From NCBI GenBank assembly GCA_009760885.1, contig CM019713.1:2747031-2811030 (forward strand): DNA of 64,000 nucleotides, given 5' to 3'. This DNA comes from Achatina immaculata (taxonomy: Eukaryota > Mollusca > Gastropoda > Stylommatophora > Achatinidae). A program made the position numbers and the translations under genes. Shown here one piece after another: positions 3,364 to 61,855 of this stretch; position 1 is the first letter of the stretch; each line of letters opens with the position of its first letter. Under the pieces are notes generated by a model. The model ran no database searches, was not told the origin of the DNA, and saw only the letters and a list, made by a program, of their open reading frames with translations.

Positions 3364-6300
3364 CTGTTGAACAAATGAAAATATACACATTTCTCTTCTT
3401 TTAATTAATGAGTATGTAATAGGCAACTACCCATCATCTAATAGACTTTTATAAAAAAATAAATACAGAAGGAGGAATGTACATCATCACTAAGGAGACT
3501 TTCAAAAATTCTTAAATATCAAACATATGGTTGGCTGACTGCAGTTTCTCTTCCACTGTTTTGTTTTGCAGAAAGTGTTATGGTAAAGATTCTAAGGTGC
3601 AGGCAGTGGCTTGTTTGAGGAGCAGAATCTAATGGCTTTTTAAATTTCAGAAGCAGATTTTTAAAAATCCAATTCACAGCAGGCTGTACCATCATGACGG
3701 TGGTAGATCTCTCAGTTGTTTACGGAAGCTGAAAGTCCTTGATAGTTCATACTATAGTGAGGAACTGAGCCATATTTTCTTGGGGCATTTGAATAAGCTA
3801 GTACCATTATGGAGAACCATGTTGATTGCTGCGTCTTTGGTCATTCTGAAATAACATGGCCATCTGTCGCTAAATGTGTCACATGTTCTGCTGGGATAAC
3901 AGCCAACTATGGCACACAGGGCCTGATACCTGGGCCATCTCTGTACTTCAGTTCCTAGTGGTGCTATCCTGGCAAAGGGGGTGCCAGAATATAATGGAAA
4001 AATCGGAAACCTCTCCTAACATTTAGAACAAAGCATGCATTAACAGATTTGAAAACTGCGCATAAAGCGTGTTAGACATGAAAGTATGAAAAATTGTAAG
4101 AGAATGGCTGTGAATGAGGACTAGCAACCACCTAAACATGTAAGGAGAGGCACTATCAGCTTGATTATGAAACACTCGTATTATGTTGTTTAATCTGAGA
4201 CTGAGAAAAAATATGCACTCCTCTCTCTCTCTCTCTGTGCGTGCGTGCGTGCATGTATACGTGCGTGCGCGCGTGTGTTGGGGGGAAGGGAAGAAACGTG
4301 AGAAGCAAAGATAAATGATGACAGCGACTACTGAAAAAAAGCACAAAACAACTGTAATAGTAAATTTAACTCTTTGAGCTTTTTAAATTTATGGATGTAT
4401 GAGTTTTTCACTCTTTCTTTTCGTGAGTTAAGTAATGAAATATGCTGACTTCTTTCAGAGCATCTATACACTGTGTGAGTGTGGTTGGGGAGGGAAAAAT
4501 GAGGTTGTTTAATATTATTATTATAATAATATAATAATAATATAATAACAGTATAATGTTTAATGATGGGACAGATATTGAAGAAGTCAATCAATTTGCA
4601 TACCTTGGCAGCTACATAGACCAGGATGGTGACACCAGAAAGGAAGTTAGAATCAGAATTGCAAAAGCAGGATCGATCTTCAAGAATCTTGAGAACATAT
4701 GGAATTCAAAAATTATAAGCACAAAAACCAAGTTAAGACTATTCAATTGAAATGTAATATCCACCCTCATTTATGCATGCGAAAGCTGGAAAACAACTAA
4801 AGAAATAAAGAAGAAATTAGACTCTTTTGAAAACAAATCTTATCCTATCTTAACTTATATCCTTTCCATGCCGTTAAACGTCACATATGGCTCGCAAAGT
4901 AGTTCGCCAATTGAAAACAAATGCCTAAGGAAAATACTTGGCATCAAGTTGAACGAATTCAAGAACAATGCAGAGATAAGACAGATTACTGAACAACAAC
5001 CAGTCTCTTGGGTGATCAGGAAAATGAGATGGACATATGTTGGTCACTTGATGAGAAGAAATGATCAGAGAATCCTAAAACAAGCTATCAGGTGGAACAC
5101 AACAGGCCAAAGAAAAGGAGGGAGACCGCGTGAAACTCTGAAGAGGACATTGCTAAGAGAGACCAAATTGAAAGACTCGCCAAAGACAGGAAAAATTGGC
5201 GAACTACTTTGCGAGCCCTATGTGACGTTTAACGGCACGGGAAGGATATAAGATAATGTTTAATGAAGCTCAGAACAAGGCACCCTAACAATTTATTTTA
5301 AAAATGTGCGTATCACATGATACATGTTTCAAACTACAAATAGTAGATCATCCATTACACTAATAAGGCTCTCTGTCATCTCACTGCTTATCTTAGTTAT
5401 CTCATCTTTTTTTTTTCTTCTTCAGCAGCTATCAACCTAACTCCATTATCTTTGCCTAATTTCCAGTTCTTTGTCATTTATTCTTACATCTCCTCGAGCT
5501 TCCATGTTTATTATTCTGTCTCCCACAGTTCTCATATAGTTAATCAGTTAGAAAGGACCATTATCCATGCACTTCAGACACATCTATAGGTACTCCAATC
5601 TCCTCTTCAGTATCTCCTCCAGCATACAGCAATTGTTGACACCTAGTCTTTGTTAGTTGATCATTCATCTGGTGCTCTTGATGAATCATTTATTTTTCTC
5701 CACCTAAAGTTTAACGTCCAGTTCTTTCACCCTTAACATGACACTGATTCACAGTTTGTTAATGAAGTCCTAATAGCTGATCTATACATGTTCTTCCTGC
5801 ATGACAAATGAGTGAGCCAACTAATATCTGCTCTTTCATTTCTCCTGACACCCGCATATTATAGTATAAAAATGAATGGATTTGTGACATATCCAGGGAT
5901 TCAAGCCACTGCTGCCTTAGAGAGAAAGACTGAATCTTCTTTAGCATGTTCAGTGGGTCACTCAAGGTGCAGGCTTGTGTGTAGTGACTTGAGTCAGCTC
6001 AGAACTTTTGTCACAGCCATGGCTTCCACTGTGAGGCTACTTGTTGTTACAGCAAAAGCACTGCTGGCTTCTTTCACTGTTCTGCTATTTGAGTTGACTG
6101 TAAAGGCCCAAGCAGACTTTCTTGCTTCATCTACCAATCCGTATGTATAAATAATGTGCACTATCTCTGGTGTTATCACAAATTTGACCTAAACATCTGC
6201 TGCAGCAGGAATATGTTCTCTACATCTTCTATACAGTGTAATATAAACAGCAGTCACTTTGAAGCTTGGTGGTGCAAGTGGCCAATTCTGTTCAGGATCT

Positions 6301-9300
6301 ATGTTCTCAAGAGGACTCACGTCAGGAATTACATCCTCCACGCAGACCACTCACACCTTTGCTCTCTTGAATCTGTTCCTTTTGTTCTTATCAGTTCATT
6401 GTGGAGTGGGTGTGTCAGTTTATTGTGGAGTGGGTGTGTCAGTTCATTGTGGAGTGGGTGTGCCAGTTCATTGTGGAGTGGGTGTGCCAGTTCACTGTGG
6501 AGTGGGTGTGTCAGTTCATTGTGGAGTGGGTGTGCCAGTTCATTGTGGAGTGGGCGTGTCAGTTTATTGTGGAGTGGGTGTGTCAGTTCATTGTGGAGTG
6601 GGTGTGTCAGTTCATTGTGGAGTGGGTGTGTCAGTTCATTGTGGAGTGGGTGTGTCAGTTCATTTTGGAGTGGGTGTGTCAGTTCACTGTGGGGTGGGGG
6701 TGCCTTGGATCTACTTATTTTGAGGTGGGATTGTGCACTAGCTATTTTTTTTTTCTGCCGTTCATGGTTGAAAAGTTTGGTAGATATTTCATGACCTTGC
6801 AGGATGAATTTGCATATTCAGTGTATTTAAAGAATCTAACTTTTGTCATTGACTTAGTCACCCTTTGTATAAAAATTCAAATATAAATTATCCTGTCTGT
6901 TTTGGCCCTAGGGTTGCTACAGTTTTGTAATAAGTGACAGACAACAAGTATAATCAAAATTTGTGCTGTTGCTAGACTGAACTGTACTTGCCCTCACCAG
7001 GATGATGGAAAAATCCTCACCTCAGTACATACAAGTGCCTTCATCTCATTTAACTAGATTAAAAATGATGCAGTGCAACTTACGTCTTTCCCAGCCATCA
7101 ATGTAGCCAGAGTCTCTGATCTTGACAATGGTTTTAACTTTGGTGCAGAAATATTCATCATTATCATCACATGAATCTGAATCACTTGTTGTATAAGGGT
7201 CCTTGCATGTCTTGTACTCTAGCGTTTGGCACTGATGACAGTTTAGTCCAAAGACTAGTTTGAATAGAAGACAAAAAGTTAACCACTAAAACAGATATAC
7301 TATAATGCATGACTATTATAAGGCTGAGAAAAATTTAGGCACATTAACAATTGATTTTTTTTTTGTGAGAACTTTGCAATTAAGAAAGAGTTAGTCTAAG
7401 TATGCCATTTATTTTTAATATTTTTATTTAGTAGCAACATTGTTGTCACTGCTCTCTGAACTTGTACATGTACTATCTCGCTGTAACTGCGAGCTGGTGT
7501 TCTTTGCAGTTGATGTTGCAGAGGTGTTGAGGCACAGCATCGTATCAGCATGGAAGCGGGTTATGGCAGCTATTTTTTCAGTCCCGGAGTACAGCTAAAA
7601 AAGCAGGGGGTGTGCAATGCTTCTTTACCAGACTTCACCACCATGGGGGCTATGGTGATCCCTGCCCCATTAGCCAGGCTAGGCCTGTTACTGGGGGTAT
7701 GATGGAAAGGTGGGACAGAGTCTTTGTCAGCTATGGTTCACTAACCCTGATGCTAGCATATCAGCTATGGGTTGCTGATTGCCTCATTGGACAGGCTCTT
7801 TGAAAAAATATATATTATTATACACATAATGCCAATAATTTATAACTGATAGTCCTAAACTATGCTACAAAACTTCAATGTCATTCTAAAATCGTAGTTA
7901 AAGACAGACGTCATGAATTTCAAAAGCATTTTGTATCTTCTTTTATCTGATGACATCTCACAAAATGAGAAACGTGTAATGTCATCTCTATCACTAAACA
8001 ACAGAAAAAAGAATTTTAAAATGTCTGTCATGAACAATCCAATGTAAAGATCACTAGAGGTCACAGAGATGTAGTTTCTTAGATGAAGGAGTGCCATGGG
8101 CAGCTAAGATTACAAACAGGAAATGTCTAGCAAAAGCAAATATAGAAAGGAACTTAGGATCAGAATTGCAAAAGCAGCATCAATCTTCAAGAATCTTGAG
8201 AACATATGGAATTCAAAAGTTATAAGCACAAAAACCAAGTTAAGACTATTCAATTCAAATGTAATATCCACCCTCATTTATGCATGCGAAAGCTGGAAAA
8301 CAACTAAAGAAATAGAAAAGAAATTAGACTCTTTTGAAAACAAATGCCTAAGGAAAATACTCGGCATCAGGTGGAATGAATTCAAGAACAATGCAGAGAT
8401 AAGACAGATGACTGAACAACAACCAGTCTCACAGGTGATCAGGAAAAGGAGATGGACATATGTTGGTCACTTGATGAGAAGAAATGATCAGAGAATCCCA
8501 AAACAAGCTATCAAGTGGAACACAACAGGCCGAAGAAAAAGGGGCAGACCACGTGAAACTCTGAAGAGGACATTATTAAGAGAGGCCAAGTTAACAGGCA
8601 TAAAATCCTTTGTTGAGGTTGAAAGACTCGCCGAAGACAGGAAAAATTGGCGAACTACTTTGCGAGCTCTATGTGACGTCTAACGGCACGGGAAGGATAT
8701 AAGATATAAGATAAGATAATGCATGACTATTATAAGGCTGAGAAAAATTTAGGCACATTAACAATTGACTTTTTTTGTGAGAACTTTGCAATTAAGAAAT
8801 AGTTAGTCTAAGTATGCCATTTATTTTTAATATTTTTATTTAGTAGCAACATTGTTGTCACTGCTCTCTGAACTTGTACATGTACTATCTCGCTGTAACT
8901 GCGAGCTGGTGTTCTTTGCAGTTGATGTTGCAGAGGTGTTGAGGCACAGCATCGTATCAGCATGGAAGCGGGTTATGGCAGCTATTTTTTCAGTCCCGGA
9001 GTACAGCTAAAAAAGCAGGGGGTGTGCAATGCTTCTTTACCAGACTTCACCACCATGGGGACTATGGTGATCCCTGCCCCATTAGCCAGGCTAGGCCTGT
9101 TACTGGGGGTATGATGGAAAGGTGGGACAGAGTCTTGGTCAGCTATGGTTCACTAACCCTGATGCTAGCATATCAGCTATGGGTTGCTGATTGCCTCATT
9201 GGACAGGCTCTTTGAAAAAATATATATTATTATACACATAATGCCAATAATTTATAACTGATAGTCCTAAACTATGCTACAAAACTTCAATGTCATTCTA

Positions 9301-12119
9301 AAATCGTAGTTAAAGACAGACGTCATGAATTTCAAAAGCATTTTGTATCTTCTTTTATCTGATGACATCTCACAAAATGAGAAACGTGTAATGTCATCTC
9401 TATCACTAAACAACAGAAAAAAGAATTTTAAAATGTCTGTCATGAACAATCCAATGTAAAGATCACTAGAGGTCACAGAGATGTAGTTTCTTAGATGAAG
9501 GAGTGCCATGGGCAGCTAAGATTACAAACAGGAAATGTCTAGCAAAAGCAAATGTAGAAAGGAACTTAAACACATAAGAAAATGGCAGTTATCATTCCTT
9601 GGACATATAATGAGATGTGGAGGGCTTCAAAACAACAGGAAAGCTAAATGAGAAGAGAGGGTGGGAATTGTGGAAAGAAAAACAAATCAAGCACAGTATA
9701 ATGCGATGGCATTAATGAAAGGTCACCAATGAGCTCATGGAAAATATCGAGGAAAGAGCTCTATGGAAAAACATGACTACCAGTGTTTCCCTGCACAGGA
9801 CCTAATAATAATGATTATCCCACTTTCACTAACATCCTTGTCAATGGCATCTTTGTCAATGACACCCTTGTCAATGCCATCCTTGTCAGTGGCATCCTTG
9901 TCAATGGCATCTTTGTCAATGGCACCCTTGTCAATGGCATCTTTGTCAATGGCACCCTTGTCAATGGCATCTTTGTCAATGGCACCCTTGTCAATGGCAT
10001 CTTTGTCAATGGCACCCTTGTCAATGGCATCTTTGTCAATGGCACCCTTGTCAATGGCATCTTTGTCAATGGCACCCTTGTCAATGACACCCTTGTCAAT
10101 GGCATCCTGGGGTATTTACACTAGAGACAAAAGCTACTTTTTTCCTAGTCTTGGACATTCAAAATTTTGTATTTTGAAGGTGATTTGTTCTAATCCAGAA
10201 AGATAATTTTCTTTTTTTTTTTTGGTCAAATTAGATGAGAAAATGTGGGAGGAGGGACAGACAGACAGACAGGTAGGTAGGTGGGTAGGTAGGTAGGAAG
10301 TAGATAGAAATAAGGGAGCAAAGAGTGGTGGTTTCTGGTGTCCAAAGCATGCCATTATCATCAGAATGATTAGCTTTTAGAGGCCAGTATTTGCAGGATA
10401 TCTTAGCTAAATCTTCTGCATCTCAGGCAGTAAAATCTTTTACTCTAAATCCATTTTAAAGCATTTTTGTGTGAGAAAAAAAGTTTCTGTAACTCCGTTT
10501 TGAATCATTTGTAGGTACACTTTTTTTTAAAACCCAAAAAAACTCCAGTTTGAAGCATTTGTAAGTATACATTTTTCAGTAAACTCAGTTTGAAGCATTT
10601 GTACATAAGTATAAAATTTTCAGTAACTGCAGTCTGAAACATCTGTATGTAAGTACAAAATTTTCATAAATTTGGTTTGAAGCATTTGTGTGCAAATATG
10701 AATTTTTCATTAACTGTAAATTTTTGTGTTTTTTCCCATCTTTGTGTAAGTATAAAATTTTCAATAACTCCAGTTTGAAACATCTGTGTGTAAATATAAT
10801 CAGTCATGTGTGTGTAAGTACAATCAGTCATTTGTATGTTAGTATAATCAGTCATCGGTGTGTAAGTACAGTCAGTCACCAGTGTGCAAGAACAGTCAAT
10901 CATTTGTGTGTAAGTACAATCAGTCATCTGTGTGTTTGTACAGTCAGTCATCTGTGTGTAAGTACAATCAGTCATCTGTGTGTAAGTAAAGTCAGTTATC
11001 TGTGTGTAAGTACAATCAGTCATCTGTGTGCAAGTACAATCAGTCATCTGTGTGCAAGTAAATCAGTCATCTATGTGCAAGTACAGTCTTGTCATCTGTG
11101 TGCAGGTACAATCAATCATCTGTGTGTAAGCACAATCAGTCATCTGTGGGTAACTACAGTCAGTCATCTGTGTGTGATTTCAGTCACCTGTAAGTACAAT
11201 CAGTCATCTGTGTGTAAGTACAATCAGTCATCATAGTTTCTCATCAGACTTTTAAGCTCGCGTTCAAGTAAAAAATCTAACCATTCAGCTGAGACTATCT
11301 TGGCCATAGATGTGTTATAGATTGTTACCTGAAAATTTTGTTTCTATCCATGCCAGAGTCTACCTTGTCCCTTGTTTTCCTTGTTCTAGAATAGATGACT
11401 GCAGTTAGGGTGGAGGGGTTGTAATCTGATGCCGTGTGGAGGTTTTGAAATATGTATAGCAAGTGAGAGTGGAAGGGAACTTGACACAGAGGGAATATGT
11501 TTGTGGGAGAAGGAAATGTTAGGTGTAACTGAACTGCGAATTCAAACCATGTACTTTTCCCCTAGTTTATACTTTTTTCCCTAGTTTATACATTTATAAG
11601 TTAATCTTCAGCTCTACTTCAGTCTCACTAGATTAATCTTCAGTTCTACTTCAGTCTTAGTAGATTAATCTTCAGTTCTACTTCAGTCTTAGTAGGTTAA
11701 TCGTCAGTTCTACTTCAGCCTCACTAGGTTAATCTTCAGTTCTACTTCAGCCTCACTAGGTTAATCTTCAGTTCTACTTCAGCCTCATTAGGTTAATCTT
11801 CAGTTCTACTTCGGCCTCACTAGGTTAATCTTCAGTTCTACTTCAGCCTCATTAGGTTAATCTTCAGTTCTACTTCGGCCTCACTAGGTTAATCTTCAGT
11901 TCTACTTCAGCCTCATTAGGTTAATCTTCAGTTCTACTTCAGCCGCACTAGGTTAATCTTCAGTTCTACTTCAGCCTCACTAGGTTAATCTTCAGCCCAT
12001 GTTATTTACTAATAAATGTTCCAGCCTCAGAACTATACATTTAATTGCTTGTTATAGAAGAAAAAAAAAAGCGCTCTTAAATGGGTACTTTAGCAGGAAT
12101 TTCCTGTTCGTTATTATTC

Positions 12120-15620: not shown

Positions 15621-15634
15621 GCTAAGCGTGTATA

Positions 15635-16931
15635 ATATAGCCTTAATATCAGTTGTGTCAAAAGTATTTTGCAAGGTCATTTTGAATAGACTCAAAGATA
15701 TAGTGGATACTGCAATGAGAGAAGAACAAGCAGGATTTCGAAAAGGGAGAAGCTGTCTCGATCAGATCTTTACTCTCAGAATAATACTTGAAGAACATAC
15801 TGAAAAGCAGAAACCATTAATACTGAACTTCATAGATTTTAAAAAGGCATTTGATAGCATACACAGAGATTCATTATGGAGAATTTTATGTCTATATGGA
15901 ATACCATCTAAAATTGTCAACATCATTAAGGACTTCTACAATGGATATGTTTGTGCAGTCAAGACAGAAGAAGGGATGAGTGAATGGTTCCAGATTGAAA
16001 CAGGCGTGAAACAAGGATGTATACTGTCTCCTTTACTTTTTGGGATTACAATAGACTTCATAATGAAAAAATGCTGCACATGTAACACAGGTATTGACTG
16101 GGTACATGGGACCCAACTAGAAGATCTTGATTTTGCTGATGACATAACTCTTATCAGTAATAATGTGAATTCCATGCAAGAAAAAACAGATAGCTGTCTT
16201 CACTGGCTAGCAAAATAGGACTGGAAATTAACAAGGACAAAACAAAAATAATGAAAATTCCCATCAATCAAAATGGAAAAATATACATAGAAGGGACAGA
16301 CATTGAAGAAGTCAATCAATTTGCATACCTTGGCAGCTACATAGACCAGGATGGTGACACTAGAAAGGAAGTTAGGATCCGAATTGCAAAAGCAGCATCA
16401 ATCTTCAAGAATCTTGAGAACATATGGAATTCAAAAGTTATAAGCACAAAAACCAAGTTAAGACTATTCAATTCAAATGTAATATCCACCCTCATTTATG
16501 CATGCGAAAGCTGGAAAACAACTAAAGAAATAGAAAAGAAATTAGACTCTTTTGAAAACAAATGCCTAAGGAAAATACTCGGCATCAAGTGGAATGAATT
16601 CAAGAACAATGCAGAGATAAGACAGATTACTGAACAACAACCAGTTTCATGGGTGATCAGGAAAAGGAGATGGACATATGTTGGTCACTTGATGAGAAGA
16701 AATGATCAGATAATCCCAAAACAAGCTATCAAGTGGAACACAACGGGCCGAAGAAAAAGAGGCAGACCGCGTGAAACTCTGAAGAGGACATTATTAAGAG
16801 AGGTCAAATTAACAGGCATTAAATCCTTTGATGAGGTTGAAAGACTCGCCGAAGACAGGAAAAATTGGCGAACTACTTTGCGAGCCCTATGTGACGTTTA
16901 ACGGCACGGGAAGGATATAAGATATATAAGA
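15635..16931 (+). mobile_element. LINE-B, longest copy: reverse transcriptase with intact FADD box
   Basis: Covers most of the RT domain: EEQAGFRKGRSCLDQIFTLR, NFIDFKKAFDSIHR, TGVKQGCILSPLLFG, then LDFADDITLISNNVNSM with both catalytic aspartates, and the thumb and C-terminal region to LRALCDV. A frameshift near 16195-16205 splits it into two long open frames (15628-16218 and 16251-16901). Flanked by the 12-bp duplication taagcgtgtata at 15623-15634 and 16932-16943, so it is a clean 5'-truncated insertion. It is the best reference for the family in this window. The endonuclease half is absent. Confidence 0.92.
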
Positions 16932-18490: not shown

Positions 18491-19146
18491 AGAAGTAGTT
18501 TCAGTTGTGTTCAGAGAGGCTGCACCTCTGTTAGCTGAAATGTAGTTTTTGTTACTCGATTGTCCTTTTTAATGACACAATATTGTAAAGTTATTTATGT
18601 AGTGTTGTAGCTAATCGCCCGGAACATTTTTATATTCTCATGTTAATTGCTTCCATCAGTTACACACTACATCCATTTGCAACACACATTTAACAAATGG
18701 GAATTCATCATTCAAATTTTGTTGATTTTTTTGTAACTGTTGAATCCTGTGATAATTGGATTCATGTTGAGTGTCAACTGTGGTGTTGAATGAGTTGATT
18801 ACATGTAACTGGTCATGTTGGTGTACGGAAATGTAATGGTTGTCGTCCTTGGTTGTCGTTGTCACACGGTGTATAACAATGTGTGTCAGTTGTGTCACTT
18901 GTGTAGCAGTAAAGTAAATCTGCTCTGTGAATAGTGAAATAGTGAATGAATAGTTCACTAGTTCAAGATAAGTTAGCCACACATGCACACACACACACAC
19001 AAACACACACACTACCAAAGTACAGTACAGTGTGTGGGCAAATCTCGTGTTTTATGTTAATGTGTAGTAAATACACTAATAAGACCAATAAGAAAGACTA
19101 CTTTACTCTTAAAGAGATGGAGACTGTAACTACCTATGCTCATTTA

Positions 19147-19275
19147 GTGGGTTTAGCCTGACTAAGTCTGTTACTGGGGTTACCAACGCAGATGTGGGAC
19201 AAGGTGTTGATCGGATAGAGTTCGCTAACCCTCAGGCAACCAGTCAGCTATAGACCCCCAGAAGAGCCTGGTAAA
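19147..19275. repeat. Dispersed repeat of about 130 bp, diverged copy
   Basis: Shares ctgttactgggg, gatgtgggacaaggt, cgctaaccctcagg and cagctataga in the same order as 7655-7805. It is duplicated at 20988-21116 with the surrounding segment. Confidence 0.45.
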
Positions 19276-19496
19276 ATATAGCTGTCGTTGAAATGCCACA
19301 TTGTAATTTACTTGTTATTTCCCTTACACTGTCCGCTGTTTTAGTAATAATACGAAAAAGAAGATGCAGGGATGTGGCATGTGGTATAAGTATTTATTTA
19401 GTACATGTGAAAAACAAACAATATTTCCTTTAATGTTTGTTCAGTTTGTTAATTTTTGCAGACTGCATAAGTCTTATATGAAGTATTATTATTATT

Positions 19497-19960
19497 ATTA
19501 TTCATTTGAATGTAAATGCTACAGAAGAGTTCTTCATATATCATGGACACATAAAAGATCAAATATATCCATACTACAAGAACTTAATATTGAAGAAGGC
19601 TGGCTAGTAGAGAGGATTAAAGAGAGAAAACTTCTCGGCCTTTTGGCTATTTTAATCAACAAACCCTCACCACACATGTGGTAAAATTATCTAACAAGCC
19701 CATGCGGGCATTAAAAATTTGAAAAAAAAGAGAGAAAACCTAAATATTTTGGACACATTAAACGTCATGATAATCTAGAGAAGACCGTCTTGGAAGGGTA
19801 CATAATGGGAAAAAGAAAGAGAGGAAGACCAAGGCGAAGATGGCTGCAAGACTTCGTTGATGATCTGCAAATGGATGCATCAGCAGCAGGCCATCTTTCT
19901 CACAACCGAGAGGTCTACAGGAGTGCTGTTAGGGAGGCAAAGGACACGCAAATGAATGAA
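19497..19960 (+). mobile_element. LINE-A 3' portion, interrupted by a U2-headed insertion
   Basis: Encodes FECKCYRRVLHISWTHKRSN, LQELNIEEGWLVERIKERK, then after the insertion KYFGHIKRHDNLEKTVL, GYIMGKRKRGRPRRRWLQD, FVDDLQMDASAAGHL and NREVYRSAVREAK. The tail is gaatgaatt, overlapping the stop region. The 5' end abuts an ATT repeat. This is a dead 5'-truncated copy. Confidence 0.85.
19632..19726 (+). mobile_element. Short U2 snRNA-headed chimeric retroposon (95 bp)
   Basis: The head cttctcggccttttggcta equals nucleotides 5-23 of U2 snRNA. It is followed by an unrelated body of about 65 bp containing a small hairpin (gcccatgcgggc) and an A-rich tail. The insertion is flanked by aaagagagaaaac at 19619-19631 and 19727-19739 and splits the LINE-A motif ERK/KYFGH exactly. 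The structure (5' snRNA head, unrelated body, poly-A, target-site duplication) fits a retroposed chimera or a SINE with an snRNA head. Confidence 0.75.
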
Positions 19961-20023
19961 TTATATATTTTTATATATAGTCCACACTGTACATATATAC
20001 ATGTGGGCAGCAGATGTGAAACT

Positions 20024-20167
20024 CATTCATTCATTCCTTTGCTTGTCCCTTGCGGAACTTTGCCTCCCAAACAGCACTCCTGTAGGCCTCTCGGTTGTGA
20101 GCAAGATGGCCTGCTGCTGCTGCATCCATTTCCAGATCATCAACGATGTCTTGCAGCCATCTTCGTT
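20024..20167 (-). mobile_element. LINE-A 3' end, recent insertion only in duplication copy 1
   Basis: The minus-strand end of LINE-A with an (ATTC)n tail at its 3' side. Flanked by gatgtgaaact at 20013-20023 and 20168-20178; the second duplication copy has the empty site at about 21860, so the insertion is younger than the duplication or absent from the other haplotype. Confidence 0.9.
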
Positions 20168-20336
20168 GATGTGAAACTACATTTAACATTTTAATATAGA
20201 CAAAACTCCTAGAGTACTGATATTTTTCTTGTCAAGAGAATAATAATATAATAGTAAAACAGGTTAAACGGGCATTGTTTGGGTACTTGAGACTCTACTG
20301 CAAGACTTTGGTTTCCCAGATGACATAGTTCTTATC

Positions 20337-20458
20337 TTCTCTTCTCGGCCCTTTGGCTAAGATCAAAGGGATGAGATCAAAGTGTCCTCTTGGCAGGTAC
20401 CCTGGTTAAAAAAAAAGACATTTGATTAAGACAAAAGCGCAGATTTTTGAGCTAAACG
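20337..20458 (+). mobile_element. U2-like retroposon, 5' half, cut by duplication breakpoint
   Basis: Same sequence as 22023-22144: cttctcggccctttggctaa onward. It stops at gagctaaacg, where the second duplication copy begins. The left target-site duplication, tgacatagttcttatc, is present at 20321-20336. Confidence 0.75.
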
Positions 20459-21337
20459 CCCGGAACATTTTTATATTCTCATGTTAATTGCTTCCATCAG
20501 TTACACACTACATCCATTTGCAACACACATTTAACAAATGGGAATTCATCATTCAAATTTTGTTGATTTTTTTGTAACTGTTGAATCCTGTGATAATTGG
20601 ATTCATGTTGAGTGTCAACTGTGGTGTTGAATGAGTTGATTACATGTAACTGGTCATGTTGGTGTACGGAAATGTAATGGTTGTCGTCCTTGGTTGTCGT
20701 TGTCACACGGTGTATAACAATGTGTGTCAGTTGTGTCACTTGTGTAGCAGTAAAGTAAATCTGCTCTGTGAATAGTGAAATAGTGAATGAATAGTTCACT
20801 AGTTCAAGATAAGTTAGCCACACATGCACACACACACACACAAACACACACACTACCAAAGTACAGTACAGTGTGTGGGCAAATCTCGTGTTTTATGTTA
20901 ATGTGTAGTAAATACACTAATAAGACCAATAAGAAAGACTACTTTACTCTTAAAGAGATGGAGACTGTAACTACCTATGCTCATTTAGTGGGTTTAGCCT
21001 GACTAAGTCTGTTACTGGGGTTACCAACGCAGATGTGGGACAAGGTGTTGATCGGATAGAGTTCGCTAACCCTCAGGCAACCAGTCAGCTATAGACCCCC
21101 AGAAGAGCCTGGTAAAATATAGCTGTCGTTGAAATGCCACATTGTAATTTACTTGTTATTTCCCTTACACTGTCCGCTGTTTTAGTAATAATACGAAAAA
21201 GAAGATGCAGGGATGTGGCATGTGGTATAAGTATTTATTTAGTACATGTGAAAAACAAACAATATTTCCTTTAATGTTTGTTCAGTTTGTTAATTTTTGC
21301 AGACTGCATAAGTCTTATATGAAGTATTATTATTATT

Positions 21338-21801
21338 ATTATTCATTTGAATGTAAATGCTACAGAAGAGTTCTTCATATATCATGGACACATAAAAGAT
21401 CAAATATATCCATACTACAAGAACTTAATATTGAAGAAGGCTGGCTAGTAGAGAGGATTAAAGAGAGAAAACTTCTCGGCCTTTCGGCTATTTTAATCAA
21501 CAAACCCTCACCACACATGTGGTAAAATTATCTAGCAAGCCCATGCGGGCATTAAAAATTTGAAAAAAAAGAGAGAAAACCTAAATATTTTGGACACATT
21601 AAACGTCATGATAATCTAGAGAAGACCGTCTTGGGAGGGTACATAATGGGAAAAAGAAAGAGAGGAAGACCAAGGCGAAGATGGCTGCAAGACATCGTTG
21701 ATGATCTGCAAATGGATGCATCAGCAGCAGGCCATCTTTCTCACAACCGAGAGGTCTACAGGAGTGCTGTTAGGGAGGCAAAGGACACGCAAATGAATGA
21801 A
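21338..21801 (+). mobile_element. LINE-A 3' portion, duplicate of 19497-19960
   Basis: Same structure and the same interrupting U2-headed insertion (here ctttcggcta instead of cttttggcta), offset 1841. Present only because of the tandem duplication. Confidence 0.85.
21473..21567 (+). mobile_element. Short U2-headed chimeric retroposon, duplicate copy
   Basis: Duplicate of 19632-19726, with two substitutions seen. Confidence 0.72.
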
Positions 21802-21947
21802 TTATATATTTTTATATATAGTCCACACTGTACATATATACATGTGGGCAGCAGATGTGAAACTACATTTAACATTTTAATATAGACAAAACTCCTAGAG
21901 TACTGATATTTTTCTTGTCAAGAGAATAATAATATAATAGTAAAACA

Positions 21948-22513
21948 GGTTAAACGGGCATTGTTTGGGTACTTGAGACTCTACTGCAAGACTTTGGTTT
22001 CCCAGATGACATAGTTCTTATCTTCTCTTCTCGGCCCTTTGGCTAAGATCAAAGGGATGAGATCAAAGTGTCCTCTTGGCAGGTACCCTGGTTAAAAAAA
22101 AAGACATTTGATTAAGACAAAAGCGCAGATTTTTGAGCTAAACGAGATACCCGAGGCCTGCCCTGCACATTGAATGTCACATCTCGTTACGGGTGGACCT
22201 GGTTTTGCAGTGCAGCGGGTCAGGGCCTGTTGTTTTCGTTGTCTTAAAAAAAACCCAAAAAACTGACATAGTTCTTATCAGTGACAATGTGAATTCGATG
22301 CGAGAAAGAACAGATGCCCTGTCTTCACCGGATAGTAAAATAGTGCTTGAAATTAACAAGGAAAAAAACGAAAATAATGAAATTTCTCATTAATCAAGAA
22401 GAATAAATATACACTGAAGGAGCAGCTGTTGAAGAAGTAAACCAGTTTGCGTACCCCGCAGCTATATAGACCAGGGTGGTGACATTAGAAAGGAAGTTAG
22501 AGTTGCAAAATAA
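21948..22513 (+). mobile_element. LINE-B-related reverse transcriptase remnant hosting the U2-like insertion
   Basis: Reads LLQDFGFPDDIVLIS up to the insertion and SDNVNSMRERTDAL, then KIVLEINKEK and a decayed Tyr-Ile-Asp region after it. This parallels LEDLDFADDITLISNNVNSM of the better LINE-B copy. The insertion lies just 3' of the catalytic Asp-Asp codons. It is an old, diverged relative of LINE-B; the tail is lost in aataataat. Confidence 0.75.
22023..22263 (+). ncRNA. U2 snRNA-like retroposon (retropseudogene or U2-derived SINE)
   Basis: Near its start it has cttctcggccctttggctaa then gatcaa, like the conserved 5' end of U2. In the middle is an Sm-like gatttttgagc. Near the end, gacctggttttgcagtgc resembles U2 stem-loop IV (gacctggtattgcagtac). 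The central part, including the branch-point-pairing segment, does not match U2. It ends in an A-rich tail and is flanked by the 16-bp duplication tgacatagttcttatc at 22007-22022 and 22264-22279, so it was inserted by LINE machinery. Most likely it is a derived U2-headed and U2-tailed retroposon, not a working spliceosomal RNA. No upstream promoter element was recognised. Confidence 0.68.
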
Positions 22514-22861
22514 TAATAATAATAACCATGGGTGTATTATATCTGTATTGAACAATGTGTGTGTTTGCATTAAAGTACAACAGTTTATTTGCATATTCAA
22601 TATTTTATATATTTATGCCATTATCTTTTTGTATTCCGCTTTCCTCTAACTTCACATGTGAGAAGGAAGCACAAACAGAGCCATTGACTTCCTGGGTTTC
22701 AGGCCTTAAGGCATCAAGTATCTTAAACTCAATTGATTTGCTTTTCTCGCACCAATCATTTTGATTCTATTCATACCTTTTTGAACAAAATTGCGTTTCT
22801 TTTTCTGTTTAACTTTAGTACTTTGTTTTCATAAATTAATGGTCCGTAACATGGAAGAAAC

Positions 22862-23175
22862 AACTGAAGTGCAAACAACGAACCAGATGCAATACACCAA
22901 CTACAAAAGCATCAGCAAACCACCCTCTTTCGCCTACGGACAGGCTACTGCAGACTACTGAGCCACCTACATCGACTCAAAATGTCTCACACACAGACGA
23001 GTGTCCATGTGGCAGTGGAGTCCGGACTCCAGAACAAATCCTTCAAGAGTGCCCAAATCATGCGGACCTGAGGCATGAGACATGACCAGAGGACACAAGC
23101 TTGGGGCAAAAGCTTTAGGAGGTCCTATCAGGATCTGGAGAGGACTGCGAGCTTTGCCATGTCGACAGGGATCAG
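22862..23175 (+). pseudogene. Jockey/I-type LINE C-terminal zinc-knuckle fragment
   Basis: Reads QTTLFRLRTGYCRLLSHLHR, LKMSHTDECPCGSGVRTPEQ, ILQECPNHADLRHET, one stop, then PEDTSLGAKALGGPIRIWRG and a stop after MSTGIRI. The arrangement RLRTGH-L-H...CPCG...E-IL--CP is the usual C-terminus of reverse transcriptases in several animal LINE clades. The upstream part is missing. Confidence 0.75.
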
Positions 23176-23596
23176 GATCTGATGTGACCAACAACCTTGA
23201 ACGCAGAAGAAGAATAAGAATGATTCGATTGGAACCACCCAAATGTCTTGCCCGATAAGGCTTAAGACTCGAAAAGGTTAAAAGCTGAAAATGATTTCAC
23301 GCTGTGAATGCTCTGGACACCATTTCCCCATGAATATCACTGTTAACTCTTTTGCTTCAAAATAACACCGGTAGAGTTGGTAGATTTTACACGCCTATGC
23401 GAATCACCGCTCAGAGAGTTCTTTAGGCGCAGTCTAAGTACAGTGAGAAATACAAGTAGTGAGTGTTGATATGACAAAACAGAACGAATTTAACGAAGAT
23501 TCTTCTTGACGCCGTATCAGTCATTTTCAATGAGCACTTTTATTAAAGAAATATTCCTTAAATTCTCAGAAATTTGCAACACAACGGGATCAACTG

Positions 23597-26995: not shown

Positions 26996-27235
26996 ATTAT
27001 CTTAATACTTGTTGTGTATCCTGATATTCGCCTATGTATTTGTTCACTCTTACTGCTGCTGCTGCTATTAATAACAACAATAATAGTAATTCCCTTCTCC
27101 CCACAACAATAATAGGAACTTTCTCTCTGGTTAGGCTTTGGTTCCTGCTTTCATGAATCCTGTTACTGGAGAAGTAATTGACGCTGGTATTCAAGCACTG
27201 TTTTTTTTAAGGAGTATGGAAATGGGAGATAGAAA

Positions 27236-27616
<381 letters not shown>

Positions 27617-27731
27617 CAAACCTTTTGTAACATGCTGCAACAAGAAAATAAGGAGTTCTCACTGGTAGGAGCAAGTCTGGCGGAACTTATGTTACGCGTC
27701 TTCCCGGACTAAATGCTCCGTCACCCCTAAA

Positions 27732-40286: not shown

Positions 40287-41535
40287 CCATTCATTCATTC
40301 ATTCATTCATTCATTCATTCATTTGCATGTCCCTTGCGGAACTTTGCCTCCCAAACAGCACTCCTGTAGGCCTCTCGCTTGTGAGCAAGATGGCCTGCTG
40401 CTGATGCATCCATTTGCAGATCATCAACGATGTATTGCAGCCATCTTCGCCTTGGTCTTCCTCTCTTTCTTTTTCCCATTATGTACCCTTCCAAGACGGT
40501 CTTCTTTAGATTATCATGACGTTTAATGTGTCCAAAATATTTAAGTTTTCTCTCTTTAGCCCTCTTTACTAGCCAGCCTTCTTCAATATTAAGCTCTTGT
40601 AGTATAGATATATTTGTTTGTTTTTTTTTTTTTTTGGTGTCCACGATATTTGAAGAACTCTTCTGTAGCATTTACATTCAAAGGCATTTATGTGTTTCTC
40701 AGCTGTTTTGTTAAGTGTCCAGATCTCACAGGCATATGTTGCGATGGGAAAGATGCATGCCCTTAAATATCTTATTTTTGTAGTTCTTTCTGCTCCTCTC
40801 CACAGATTCTTTATTTGTTTTACTTTCTGAATGGCGATAGATGTCCTCCTTTTAATTTCCCTCATTGTATCTCCATTATTAGTTAGTAGTGATTCAAAAT
40901 ATTCAAAACTCTCCACCTCTTCCAGTTTTTCCTCATTAGTACATATTTCAGCTGCCTTGTTTGTTTCTTCATTTGTCATCAAATTAGTTTTCTTTGCATT
41001 AAGATAGAGGTTTTGCTCTTCGCTGTTCTTACGGACTGACATAATTAGTTTTTCCATTCCTTTTTGTGTTGTGGACAGTAACACTGTGTCATCAGCATAT
41101 CTAATCTCTGGTATTTCATAACCTCCAATTGTTATGGCATTGTAGTATCCTTTGTCTACATCTTCTCTAACATTCCTCATTATATTTTCAGTATACAAGT
41201 TAAATAAGTAAGGCGACAATATGCACCCCTGACGGACCCGTTATTTTATGTCAAACCAAGTTGTTGTTTCACCATTTATTCTTACTGCTGCTTGTTGGTC
41301 TAAATACAACAGTGATGTTAATTGTATCAAATGTGTTGGAAATCCCATTTTTTTTTCATTTCCCAAAGTTTCTGGTGTTGTACACAATCAAATGCCTTTG
41401 AGGATAAATATAGATTCACATTAAACTCTCTGCATTTCTCTATTATTAATCTTATATTGAATATATGATCTCTTGATTCTTTTCCTTGCCTGAACCCAGC
41501 TTGGACCATATTGACTTCTTCTTCCATTTTCTATC
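40287..41535 (-). mobile_element. LINE-A, longest copy (RT and C-terminus)
   Basis: Minus strand: VQAGFRQGKESRDHIFNIR, LYLSSKAFDCVQHQKLWE, then MSPYLFNLYTENIMRNVRED, IGGYEIPEIRYADDTVLLST with both catalytic Asp, FECKCYRRVLQISWTPKK, ELNIEEGWLVKRAKERKLK, GYIMGKRKRGRPRRRWLQ, DDLQMDASAAGHLAHKREAY and FRKGHANE. The 3' tail is about eight ATTC units (40287-40320), and the stop codon lies inside the tail motif. A poly-T expansion (40619-40637) and frameshifts break the frame. The first Asp of the usual FIDFxKAFD region is lost. Confidence 0.88.
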
Positions 41536-49012: not shown

Positions 49013-49069
49013 CTAATTTATGAACATATGAATTGAGAGAGGGCAAACTACCTTGTCGAAAAAACGTCA

Positions 49070-50229
49070 AACAATGAATGCCTGCCATGCTTATATATTA
49101 CTTGTGTCGTCCATGAATGCCGGCCGTGTTTATATATTACTTGTGTCGTCCATGAATGCCAGCCATGTTTGTATATTACTTGTGTCATCCATGTATGCCT
49201 GCCATGTTTATATATTACTTGTGTCATCCATGTATGCCTGCCATGTTTGTATATTACTTGTGTCGTCCATGAATGCCGGCCATGTTTGTATATTACTTGT
49301 GTCGTCCATGAATGCCAGCCATGTTTGTATATTACTTGTGTCATCCATGTATGCCCGCTATGTTTGTATATTACTTGTGTCATCCATGTATGCCCGCCTT
49401 GTTTGTATATTACTTGTGTCATCCATGTATGCCCGCCTTGTTTGTATATTACTTGTGTCACCCATGTATGCCCGCCTTGTTTGTATATTACTTGTGTCAC
49501 CCATGTATACCCGCCTTGTTTGTATATTACTTGTGTCATCCATGTATGCCCGCCTTGTTTGTATATTACTTGTGTCATCCATGTATGCCCGCCTTGTTTG
49601 TATATTACTTGTGTCATCCATGTATGCCCGCCTTGTTTGTATATTACTTGTGTCATCCATGTATGCCCGCCTTGTTTGTATATTACTTGTATCGTCCATG
49701 TATGCCCGCCTTGTTTGTATATTACTTGTGTCATCCATGTATGCCCGCCTTGTTTGTATATTACTTGTGTCATCCATGTATGCCCGCCTTGTTTGTATAT
49801 TACTTGTGTCATCCATGTATGCCCGCCTTGTTTGTATATTACTTGTATCGTCCATGTATGCTGCCATGTTTATATATTACTTATATCGTCCATGTATGCC
49901 TGCCATGTTTATATATTACTTATATCGTCCATGTATGCCTGCCATGTTTATATATTACTTATATCGTCCATGTATGCCTGCCATGTTTATATATTACTTG
50001 TATCGTCCATGTATGCCTGCCATGTTTATATATTACTTATATCGTCCATGTATGCCTGCCATGTTTATATATTACTTGTATCGTCCATGTATGCCTGCCA
50101 TGTTTATATATTACTTGTATCGTCCATGTATGCCCGCTATGTTTGTATATTACTTGTATCGTCCATGTATGCCTGCCATGTTTATATATTACTTATATCG
50201 TCCATGTATGCCCGCCATGTTTGTATATG
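49070..50229. repeat. Minisatellite, 39-bp unit, about 30 copies
   Basis: Unit tgtatgcccgccttgtttgt plus atattacttgtgtcatcca. Variants cluster: cctgccatgtttatat-type units at both ends, cccgccttg-type in the middle, and tatatcgtcc-type after 49850. The 39-bp period keeps frames open on both strands, creating false proteins up to 521 codons. No signal, domain or codon bias suggests coding. Confidence 0.95.
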
Positions 50230-50231
50230 AA

Positions 50232-50362
50232 ACCTGCGGCGAGTTCAGCTTAACTGGGACCAACATTAAATCGAATGTCCCTTTCGGAACACTTATTATA
50301 CTTTCTTTGTGGCTTCCGTTTATCTTCAGTCTTATCATCTCAATTCTCACGATTCACTCTCA

Positions 50363-50413
<51 letters not shown>

Positions 50414-50690
50414 GCGCACACACACACGCACGCACGCACGCACGCACGCACGCACACACACGTACGTTTTACTTCATACTTTACAGTTATCACTTACATA
50501 TCAACCAGACGGTCCCTGGTTCGAATTCCAACTCGGGGCGGAATTTTTCCACATCAACTGGCACCGGAATCAGTGGGTATCTGGGGCTTTCCTGGGACAA
50601 CAGAGGCAGCGAGGGTAGGTGCTGCCATGCAGACCTCAACTGCTGTGGTGGCTTATAAATGTGAAGGCACTAACACATCACACCCCTACC
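50232..50690 (+). repeat. Dispersed SINE-like repeat, copy 1, with microsatellite inside
   Basis: Parts 50232-50345 and 50500-50690 match 51975-52290: gcttaactgggacc, gtggcttccgttta, ccctggttcgaattcc, actggcaccgga and gtgaaggcac. A (TC)n(CA)n(CG-rich) tract at 50360-50463 sits where the other copy has none. The ggttcgaattcc motif is B-box-like; the A box is not clear. Confidence 0.55.
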
Positions 50691-55462: not shown

Positions 55463-56387
55463 GATATACTTCATTAATTCATTTGTATGTCCCTTGCGGA
55501 ACTTTGCCTCCATAATAGCACTCCTGTAGGCCTCTCGGTTGTGAGCAAGATGGCCTGTTGCTGGTGCATCCATTTGCAGATCATCAACGATATTTTGTAG
55601 CAATCTTTGCCTTGGTCTTCCTCTCTTTATTTTTCCCATTATGTACCCTTCCAAGACGGTCTTCTCTATATTATCATGACGTTTAATGTGTCCAAAATAT
55701 TTAAGTTTTCTCTCTTTAATTCTCTTTACTAGGCAGTCCTCTTTAATATTAAGTTCTTGTAGTATGGATAACACATCTTTATCAATGAATGTTAGAAAAC
55801 GAGTCCTAAAATGCTATATTGAGCCTATCTTGTTATATGGAAGTGAATCATGGACAATAGGCAAGTCTGCACAAAAATCATTGGAAGCAGCAGAAATGTG
55901 GTTTATTAGAAGAATGTTACGAATCCCCTGGACAGCAAAAATAACTAATGAAGAATGTATGAGAAGAGCTGGAGAGACAAAAAAACATTGTCAGAAAGAT
56001 AAGAGAGAGACAATGTACTTTCATAGGACATGCAATGAGAAGAGGGGGCATTGAAAATATTATAACAACAGGAAAAATAGAAGGAAGAAGATCAAGAGGA
56101 AGACCAAGAGAAATGATACTGGACAGTCTGACGGGATGGTGTGAGAGGAGATCACCAACTGAACTGATGGCCTGCATGAAGGATCGGGTACTCTGGAGAA
56201 GCATAATAGCCAACGCCAGTCGGCACGGCACCTGATGATGATGAGTATGGATATATTTGTTCTTTTTTGTATCCATGATATTTGAAGAACTTTTATGTAG
56301 CATTTACATTCAAAGACATTTACGTGTTTGTCATCTGTTTTGTTAAGTGCCCAGGTCTCACAGGCATATGTTGCGATGGGAAAGATG
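55463..56387 (-). mobile_element. LINE-A copy inserted in mariner 3' region
   Basis: Pieces 55463-55770 and 56254-56387 join into one LINE-A end: WTLNKT-like start, FECKCYIKVLQIS-like part, then after the nested element LQELNIKEDCLVKRIKERKL, YFGHIKRHDNIEKTVLEGY and NREAYRSAIMEAKFRKGHTN. It is interrupted by LINE-E. Confidence 0.85.
55771..56243 (+). mobile_element. LINE-E 3' portion nested in LINE-A
   Basis: Reads RVLKCYIEPILLYGSESWT, AAEMWFIRRMLRIPWTAK, then after a frameshift RGGIENIITTGKIEGRRSRG, RPREMILDSLTGW, and ends IIANASRHGT with a stop. The tail tgatgatgatgag follows at once. Flanked by the 10-bp duplication agtatggata at 55761-55770 and 56244-56253. The protein end resembles LINE-D (AYAKRHGT). 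Confidence 0.9.
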
Positions 56388-57608
56388 CACTTACATATAC
56401 CTAAAATTCATCGAAATAACATCCTTGAACATCTGTACACCGTTGCCAGCGTTTCTGCCACGCGTCGTAGCCCTCCGGGAAGTCTTGAACAGGGATCTCC
56501 TTCAAAGTCCTCGTCACGGTAGTTTGGACGTCATTAACAGTCACAAAACGGTGACCTATCAAGCTTGATTTGGCCGGGGGAAACAAACCAAAAAAAGTCA
56601 GCCGGGGCCAAGTCCGGGCTGTAGGGAAGTTGACACAGCGTTGTCACGGTTTGTTTCAACAGAAGCTCTCTCAATAGCAGCGACACATGGTTAGGCGCAT
56701 TATCGTGATGAAGAACCAGATGTTGGTGATCTTAGGTTGGACTCGCGTGATTCTTTTCTTCAGCCGTTTAAGCACTTTCACGTAAAATGTTGCGTTGACC
56801 ATTGTCCGCGTGGTGCGAACTCCTTATGGACAACACCTTTAGAATAAAAAAAAAACAATGAGCATTGAATTCGTCTTCGATTTGCTGATTCGAGCCTTCT
56901 TTGTTCGAAGAGACTCGGTAACGTGGCACTCAGAACTCTGTATTTTCATCTCCGGATCGTACTCAAAGACCCACGTTTCATCACCGGTTATAATTTTCTC
57001 CAAAAAAATCAGATTCACTTCTCACACTGTCCAAAAGCTCACGAGAAATCGATACATGGTTTTTCTTCTGTTCGTCGCTCAAAACCTTAGGAACAAATCT
57101 GGCACAAATTTTCCCCATGTGACGATTTCATGCACAATGAATTTTGGAAGTCCCACTTGATCTGTTATCAATCTAAGACTCAGTCGTCGGTCAGAGTCCA
57201 AAACCGCTTTCACTTTAACAGCATTGTCGGAAGTGTGAGACGTTTTTGGGCGCCCTTTGTGTTGTTCATCCTCGACGCTCTCGCTTCTTTCGTTGATTTC
57301 CATAAAGCATCCTTTCCGTAGGCTTTCTGTATCACATCAAGCGTATCAGTAGCGGATTTTTCAAGTTTAACACACAATTTTATCGCGTATCGCTACTTGT
57401 GTCAGATCTGCATTTTGACCGTTACGAGACGCTTAAACAGCTGTCCATTTCGCAAGCGATCCGAACTCTGTAAAAGCTCAGAACCAAATGACGAGATATC
57501 GATCTATTACATAACATACCCCACTAACCTTCAGGCCCGGAGAATCTACCATCCCTCCGCCTCTGCTGTTTGGTTCAATAAAATAAATCTCATTACTTAC
57601 TGGATATC

Positions 57609-57917
<309 letters not shown>

Positions 57918-58163
57918 AAAGGTTCCTTCAAAACCGTCTTAAAAAACGAAAACATAATAACTAGTAAACGCTAATTCCATTGTACAAATGAGCTGAAAAA
58001 AGTGAAGAGAATTTTTACTCCATTTAAAAAAATGCTGAAAATGCCCTAAACAGCCAGCAGTTTGTAGCCCAGAACATCATGGCTATCACCCCCACCCTTC
58101 TTTTTTGTCGGATTTGGCTTCCTGCGAATTTTTCTGTTCTCAAAAATGAAGACGAAGATGAAA

Positions 58164-60660: not shown

Positions 60661-61855
60661 TGAAGTGACTGCTGAGATGTTGAAAATAAAAGAGATAGAA
60701 ACACCAAAACAACTCTGTCGGATACTACAACAAATTTGGGATCTAGAAAAAAAGCTCCAGACGAGTGGAAAACTGGCCTTATAGTAAAACTACCAAAGAA
60801 GGGTGTCCTCAGAGATTGCAGGAACTGGAGAGGCATCACACTCCTGCCACTCACCAGCAAAATATTTTGCGGCATAATCATCAACAGAATTGTACCAGCG
60901 CTTGAGGGAACAATTAGGAAAGAGCAGACAAGATTTAGGAAAGGAAGATTTTGTATTGGTCACATATTTGTACTTAGACAAATATTAGAGCCAGCAAATA
61001 CGTGGCATAGCACAAAAGACGCACTGTTTATATATTCTGAGAAAGCCTTCGACAGTGTCAACAGAGATGCTCAGCCAACAATAAGATAGCATGGCCTCCC
61101 TCAAAAGAAAAGTGAATGTCATCAAAGTCCTAACTAGGGTTTTCAGTGCAAAGTGATCTGCGGAAAACACACATCCAACAGCTTTAGGGTACAAACAGGA
61201 TTGAAGAAAGGATTTTTACTATCACCAACATTATTTATCTTAGCAGTAGACTGGTTAATGAATGAGGCAACATCAGATAAACGCAGAGGATTACAATGGG
61301 CCCTCAACTCTGTACTGGAGGACCTTGACTTTGCCGACGGCATTTGTCTACTATCAAGCAGGTACAAAGTCATGCAAGACAAACTAACCCAAAATGCCAA
61401 CAAAAATAGGTTTAAAGATCAACGTAGGAAAGACAAAATTAATGAAGCAAAAAGTGAACAGCAGCAATATACTAAGAGTAGATAATAAGCTAGTGGAGGA
61501 GGTCAGTGAATTTGTAGTAGAGTAGTGGAAGTTGGAGACAGTACAGAGGACATCAACAACAGACTTACTAGAGCAAACCAGGTTTTTGCAGTGCTTCAAA
61601 CTATGTGAAAAAAAAATGAGCATGGAGACGAAAATCAGGATATTTAAGAGTAATGTTCTAAGTATACTACTCTATGGAAGTGAATGCTGGAAAATCACCA
61701 AACCTATAGAAAACAAGCTGAATTCTTTCTAGACAAAATGTTTACGAAGAATTAGAAGAACATTTTGACAAAACACCATAAGAAGCAACATCATGTTGGC
61801 AGAAATGTAAATGAAGCCACCGGCAACAGTTATTGAGGAAAGATGCCGGCGAAGG
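60661..61855 (+). repeat. LINE-C RT segment, tandem duplication copy 1
   Basis: 1195 bp repeated at 61856-63050 with no difference seen. Encodes PDEWKTGLIVKLPKKGVLRD, NWRGITLLPLTSKIFC, KEQTRFRKGRFCIGHIF, YSEKAFDSVNRD, TGLKKGFLLSPTLFILAVDW, LEDLDFADGICLLSSRY (second active-site Asp changed to Gly) and SECWKITKPIENKLNSF. Several stops. The junction is gcgaagg/tgaagtgac with gaag microhomology. Confidence 0.93.

Follow-up and report, generated by a model that had tools for sequence, protein, structure and literature searches.

A U2-headed retroposon family in Achatina immaculata and its probable origin from elements inserted in U2 snRNA genes

A 241-bp insert in the window, the 64,000-nucleotide stretch of Achatina immaculata contig CM019713.1 analysed here (positions 2,747,031 to 2,811,030), belongs to a short, dispersed, non-coding, multicopy family, SINE B, whose head derives from U2 snRNA. 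From sequence comparisons we consider it likely, with a probability of about 0.78, that a SINE of this group targets U2 genes, relies on their promoter for its transcription, takes the U2 5' end with it and gains a head with each round. This would offer a direct explanation for the origin of mobile elements headed by a splicing RNA, a pol II gene without internal promoter being no obvious supplier of SINE heads, and it concerns an essential, low-copy RNA gene that is heavily invaded. The route is testable, since one and the same genome provides the element, the gene targeted, the U2 promoter, a locus that is a likely source, and the dispersed products. An earlier note on the window sequence had proposed a retroposon with U2 parts at both ends, and that part of its interpretation stood; it missed the second family SINE A, the U2-gene resident SINE C, the LINE and the probable source of the heads.

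The insert and its parts were located in the window as follows:

22007 to 22022, + strand: left target-site duplication TGACATAGTTCTTATC (direct reading, repeat search, empty paralogue at 16138-16155)
22023 to 22263, + strand: U2-headed SINE of family B, older subfamily (own-genome matches)
22027 to 22054, + strand: U2 head CTTCTCGGCCCTTTGGCTAAGATCAAAG, nt 5-32 of this genome's U2 with one T-to-C change
22055 to 22071, + strand: decayed second U2 head GGATGAGATCAAAGTGT, 15/17 like U2 nt 19-35 by eye
22103 to 22128, + strand: decayed third U2 head (best local match to U2 of the old-subfamily middle)
22128 to 22135, + strand: Sm-like site GATTTTTG (direct reading, Rfam alignment)
22141 to 22188, + strand: U2-like stem-loop III, AACGAGAT...ATCTCGTT, with enlarged loop (direct reading, family-consensus fold)
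22191 to 22227, + strand: U2-like stem-loop IV (Rfam alignment, family-consensus fold)
22228 to 22263, + strand: 3' tail TGTTGTTTTCGTTGTCTT and A-rich end (direct reading, copy alignment)
22264 to 22279, + strand: right target-site duplication TGACATAGTTCTTATC (direct reading, repeat search)
20337 to 20458, + strand: repeat of the 5' portion of element B, truncated by a local duplication (20168-20458 equals 21854-22144)

The 16-bp duplication is perfect, and the U2 5' end, the Sm-like site and the stem-loop IV-like part (GACCTGGTTTTGCAGTGC at 22196-22213) were all read directly in 22023-22263, as the earlier note had described them; of its poly-A end, an A-rich tail remains which is not pure A. 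Its placement of the insertion in a reverse transcriptase active-site region was also correct. The host is a LINE copy interrupted at the reverse transcriptase DD box, where a related ORF at 15628-16218 reads ...LDFADDITLISNNVN..., and the empty paralogous site at 16138-16155 lies in the same window. A protein search with the host LINE gave Schistosoma as its only named relatives, at about 40%. The target of the window copy matches the U2 target over 11 nt (GTTCTTATCAG), the longest match among 77 copies; as 4 of 1643 control stretches also reach at least 11 nt, its own insertion at a U2-like target is only suggestive.

The genome searched comprises 1.65 Gb in 145 contigs. With window element B as query, 2184 first-look candidates were obtained, 40 were scored and 44 matches were reported, all of which, the window copy itself excepted, were 80-92% identical to the query. 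With the typical copy L004 as query (2619 first-look candidates), 40 of 40 scored copies were 98-100% identical, with four partial neighbours at 90-98%, and the top of SINE B is therefore judged young and homogeneous. The window copy, about 82% identical to the typical copy, belongs to an older subfamily together with L002 and L005. The SINE B junction was found in 474 exact copies genome-wide, against none for the reversed-pattern control. An exact core pattern gave 0 matches in viral and genome contig collections, from which records of this genome or close to it may be absent.

Insertion features were assessed on 77 SINE copies with both ends (28 A and 49 B, end-cut copies being left out), a set that takes in L029, the SINE A copy of the window and its duplicate L040. 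A duplication of at least 9 bp flanks 23 of the 77, as against 1.1% of mispaired flanks, and A-runs follow the body. The start is exactly U2 nt 1 in 27 of the 77 and falls within nt 1-4 in 58, where the classes later than nt 1 rest on 1-3 bases. Among 19 picked duplications the endonuclease motif was only A-rich and weak. The dispersed copies do not in general sit at U2-like sites (mean match 6.73, compared with 7.05 in control stretches, over the 77 copies), and off-target insertion at U2-like sites was accordingly rejected as a general rule; for the same reason another LINE may serve the dispersed copies.

The proposal of a new type of snRNA-headed SINE, a retroposon with U2 parts at both ends, is upheld by these data as a multicopy family with target-site duplications. 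The note's other suggestion, that of a lone and rapidly decayed U2 retropseudogene, would suit the order of the U2 features, the A-tail and the target-site duplication, but it is barely credible for a member of a multicopy family with a common middle that does not follow U2, or for an insert whose 16-bp duplication is perfect despite its strong difference from this genome's U2. Alignment to the species' own U2 found similarity in parts only and not along the whole length, and with the many copies this led us to reject that candidate.

The Rfam model of U2 (RF00004), the only Rfam family to reach E ≤ 1 across 21000-23400, recognised the window insert at 35.6 bits over model positions 1-192, under the gathering score of 46, and its match skipped the middle of the insert. 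The older copy L002 scored 40.0 bits, beneath the same cut-off, and three of three young copies scored 54.7-59.3 bits, above it, so that automatic U2 gene counts in such genomes may be inflated. A minimum-energy fold of the window copy alone lacks stems III and IV; the family consensus folds into both, with almost no covariation, both partners having changed in just 1 pair out of 75. The scores of the young copies, and the retention of the Sm-like site and of stem-loops III and IV, could be taken to mean that SINE B consists of U2-like snRNA genes which have diverged but still function and which retroposition has spread. We regard this as very improbable, however, because the older copies fall below the gathering score, because the branch-site sequence GTAGTA, present in the intact class-1 U2 genes, is absent from 9 aligned SINE B rows, and because the dispersed copies have A-tails, in part also duplications, and lack a U2 promoter.

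As regards internal promoters, no B box was found within 3 mismatches in SINE A or SINE B, and an internal pol III promoter was rejected for both on this ground; SINE C has two 3-mismatch B-box matches. A-box-like matches with 1 mismatch are present in the heads, and SINE A and B contain internal TTTT runs. A tRNA scan of the window found none. Since an internal pol III promoter is lacking, these elements are SINEs in the wider sense.

Positions 1-34 of SINE B at L029 are identical to this genome's U2, and decayed older U2 heads lie beneath this new head. The old-subfamily stretch GCCCTTTGGTTAAGACAAAAGCGTAG resembles U2 nt 12-37 in 21 of 26 positions, a similarity equalled by 0 of 1000 dinucleotide shuffles, and stops one base before the insertion point described below; the third head of the window copy has diverged beyond this form. 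For the young SINE B middle minus its first 15 bases, 46 of 1000 shuffles were as good against U2. A head in front of another head was read in L052, L060, L086, L094 and L102. The remainder of SINE B can be aligned both with this genome's U2, over the stretch between the Sm site and the end of stem-loop IV, and with SINE C (85% over 133 columns). Whether the SINE B middle was once a SINE C 5' end is doubtful, 141 of 2000 shuffles being as good for the old form and 7 of 2000 for the young form.

The second U2-headed family, SINE A, lies 0.5 kb from the SINE B copy of the window:

21472 to 21570, + strand: U2-headed SINE of family A, a U2 head (up to nt 23) on a different body
21460 to 21472 and 21568 to 21580, + strand: SINE A duplication AAAGAGAGAAAAC (direct reading)
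19631 to 19729, + strand: duplicated copy of element A (head-pattern and repeat searches)

Empty paralogous sites for SINE A are present in the window at 40543-40557 and 55703-55717 (minus strand), and its junction has 78 exact copies genome-wide (reversed-pattern control, 0). A 19-nt head pattern with up to 3 mismatches was found four times in the window, where 0.09 would be expected; owing to the local duplication at 18.6-22.1 kb these represent two independent elements, B and A. In that duplication, 18605-20027 repeats at 20447-21869 (99.5%) and 20168-20458 at 21854-22144 (100%), and a 108-bp piece is inverted (20058-20165 against 19835-19942); the duplication 18605-22144 could be real or an assembly effect. 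Elsewhere in the window, two ORFs at 60736-61485 (117 and 110 aa) have counterparts of identical translation shifted by 1195 bp, at 61931-62680, which indicates another local duplication, and the open frames at 6156-6886, 9763-10206, 49048-50618, 27163-27674 and 57397-57974 consist largely of minisatellite or tetranucleotide repeats and are probably not genes.

A genome search with RF00004 gave 103,004 first-look candidates, a figure which is not a copy count, and 46 scored matches, of which 30 loci were read:

L009 to L016: intact U2 (181.5-184.9 bits)
L017: nearly intact U2 with a different 5' flank
L018 to L023: second, diverged U2 class with its own related upstream sequence (140.6-158.9 bits)
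L024 to L038: interrupted U2 with an A-tail abutting nt 39 (9 LINE tails, 6 SINEs)

U2 is thus uninterrupted in 15 of the 30 loci and interrupted at nt 39 in the other 15. The junction of an A-tail with nt 39 has 50 exact occurrences (reversed control, 0); 7 of these have a further U2 piece at a distance of 193-266 bp and look secondary. SINE C, SINE B (at L029 and L035) and an APE-type LINE all occur in U2 genes with their A-tails abutting nt 39. Heads resembling the second U2 class also adjoin the SINE copies L080 and L094. Downstream of some U2 genes, by about 110 bp, lies a partial U2 piece (about nt 39/42-117) preceded by A's (L071, L073), which an earlier insertion may have left behind.

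SINE C, mostly a diverged U2 3' half, has the order U2 promoter, U2(1-38), TCTGCGCTC..., Sm-like site, stem-loops III and IV, tail, A-tail and U2 from nt 39. Of 119 loci compared with the 100-bp U2 promoters, 25 gave a match, all of them U2 genes or elements within them, whereas the 78 loci retrieved as SINE copies gave none. The promoters were found at the SINE C loci L027, L036, L038 (overlapping L070, L075) and partly L030, and at the SINE B loci L029 and L035; a second promoter type occurs at L069 and L074 (LINE or SINE-plus-LINE) and also at the intact genes L010 and L011. Promoter a (five T's) followed by a head was found at 16 places genome-wide, a count that leaves promoter type b aside. 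Six of the 16 are intact U2 and seven are SINE C (L027, L030, L036, L038, L116, L117 and L119, just 5-10 upstream bases being read for the last three). At L035 promoter a precedes U2 to nt 53 and then a truncated SINE B ending at nt 39, so that U2 nt 39-53 flanks the insert left and right, which by eye resembles an ordinary duplication of about 15 bp, and at L118 it precedes a SINE B head with a diverged continuation. L029, the remaining one of the 16, consists of a promoter (98.5% over 201 bp), U2(1-34) and the SINE B body. At those SINE C, L029 and L069 sites that were read completely, the promoter of U2 and its 5' end lie upstream in the same orientation.

The junction of U2(1-38) with SINE C, AAGATCAAAGTGTAGT/TCTGCGCTC, occurs in 357 exact copies genome-wide (control, 0); set against the 16 promoter-a heads, this places most such copies outside U2 genes, as at L031 and L108. 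This junction also bears on how the heads were acquired. Template switching of the reverse transcriptase onto U2 RNA could have added heads to existing SINEs, the insertions in U2 genes being incidental, and chimeras with snRNAs are made by LINE-1 according to PMC13174262. SINE A, where U2 nt 1-23 is joined to an older SINE body, lends itself to such a route: its older relatives L049 and L062, which have other 5' sequence, read ...GGCTAAG(TAG)ATTTTAATC..., and the head stops at nt 23, at the GGCTA common to these relatives, which a switch could have used. As the SINE A head ends at nt 23 and not at 38, it needs another route, and template switching appears to fit it better. As a general account, however, template switching is unlikely, as it predicts neither a SINE C junction at U2 nt 38, the insertion point itself, in 357 exact copies, nor the position of SINE C behind real U2 promoters.

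The LINE found in U2 genes was read at L074, where ORF2 is open over its whole 1120 aa, has APE (PF03372) and reverse transcriptase (PF00078) domains and is followed by U2 from nt 39; an upstream ORF of 244 aa without Pfam match is probably ORF1. The copies L071 and L072 are full-length, with a U2 head at the 5' end and U2 from nt 39 as 3' flank, and no U2 promoter was found in the upstream stretch examined. The named protein nearest to that of the LINE comes from the land snail Bradybaena similaris (57%). At their 5' ends SINE C and the LINE are similar, to a degree equalled by 1 of 2000 shuffles. The SINE would seem to depend on the LINE protein.

Our favoured reading is a SINE that targets the U2 genes. 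The U2 promoter would transcribe U2(1-38) together with the SINE, a step that we infer from the order of the sequences, and the LINE protein would copy this RNA by target-primed reverse transcription. The cDNA may then anneal through its U2 end to the U2 5' half of a new U2 gene, giving a junction without duplication and a new transcribed copy; alternatively, that end may land elsewhere with an ordinary duplication, giving a silent dispersed copy. Over repeated rounds the U2 heads would pile up. The SINE body would bring along the U2-like 3' half, with its Sm site and stem-loops III and IV, and this half may cause the cell to treat the chimeric RNA as it treats U2. The likely source of SINE heads is U2 genes occupied by the element, and the homogeneous, promoterless dispersed copies fit a few sources such as L029.

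Several observations count against a U2-targeting SINE. The LINE tails match neither SINE C nor U2, the A-tail being all that they share; the sites of the dispersed copies do not generally resemble U2; no duplication of at least 9 bp was found in 54 of the 77 SINE A and B copies; and to these are added the A-box-like matches, the nt 23 head of SINE A, the promoterless headed LINEs L071 and L072, and the failure of the window copy alone to fold into stems III and IV.

A more specific form of the U2-targeting SINE, which we hold tentatively and at slightly less than even odds, is an element specific to U2 genes that uses U2 twice. Its body would be a U2 3' half, and landing at nt 38 would regain a promoter and a 5' end and rebuild an RNA of U2 size (191 as against 193 nt), which may be assembled into a U2-like snRNP that lacks branch-site function. 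As each cycle in a U2 gene would add a head, the family members would keep a layered record of past rounds, along with hundreds of promoterless copies.

U2-headed SINEs are a kind already known, and the present elements appear, from the literature searched and from recall, to be a new variant. SINEU elements (Kojima 2015) are reportedly SINEs with U1- or U2-derived heads and repeated head addition, said to occur in crocodilians, to insert into a mariner family and to be mobilised by Tx1-Mar. As is said of SINEU, the elements described here are short non-autonomous retroposons with a U2-derived 5' head; unlike SINEU, they also have a 3' half resembling U2 in the body, a related element occupies a single site in U2 genes downstream of their promoter, and the new head is underlain by decayed ones.

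R2 is transcribed from its host 28S rRNA gene, and upstream target sequence helps to form its 5' junction. The present elements would resemble it in both respects, with putative transcription from the host gene and the upstream target aiding the 5' junction, and differ in that the target is a pol II snRNA gene whose 5' end stays on the element.

Among the matches listed in a literature search (titles and abstract openings), a U2-targeting SINE was not found, and the sections of PMC4640811 consulted describe no SINE partner of Utopia. According to PMC4640811, Utopia and Keno insert at the same point, U2 nt 38/39; Keno is an APE-type, U2-targeting LINE, and Utopia has a restriction-like endonuclease and many disrupted U2 genes. 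The LINE described here resembles Keno in its APE domain and its 3' junction at U2 nt 39, the Bradybaena similaris protein at 57% being its nearest named relative. With Utopia it shares the insertion point and the many disrupted U2 genes, here 50 junctions, and it differs from Utopia in that an APE-type domain (Pfam) takes the place of the restriction-like endonuclease.
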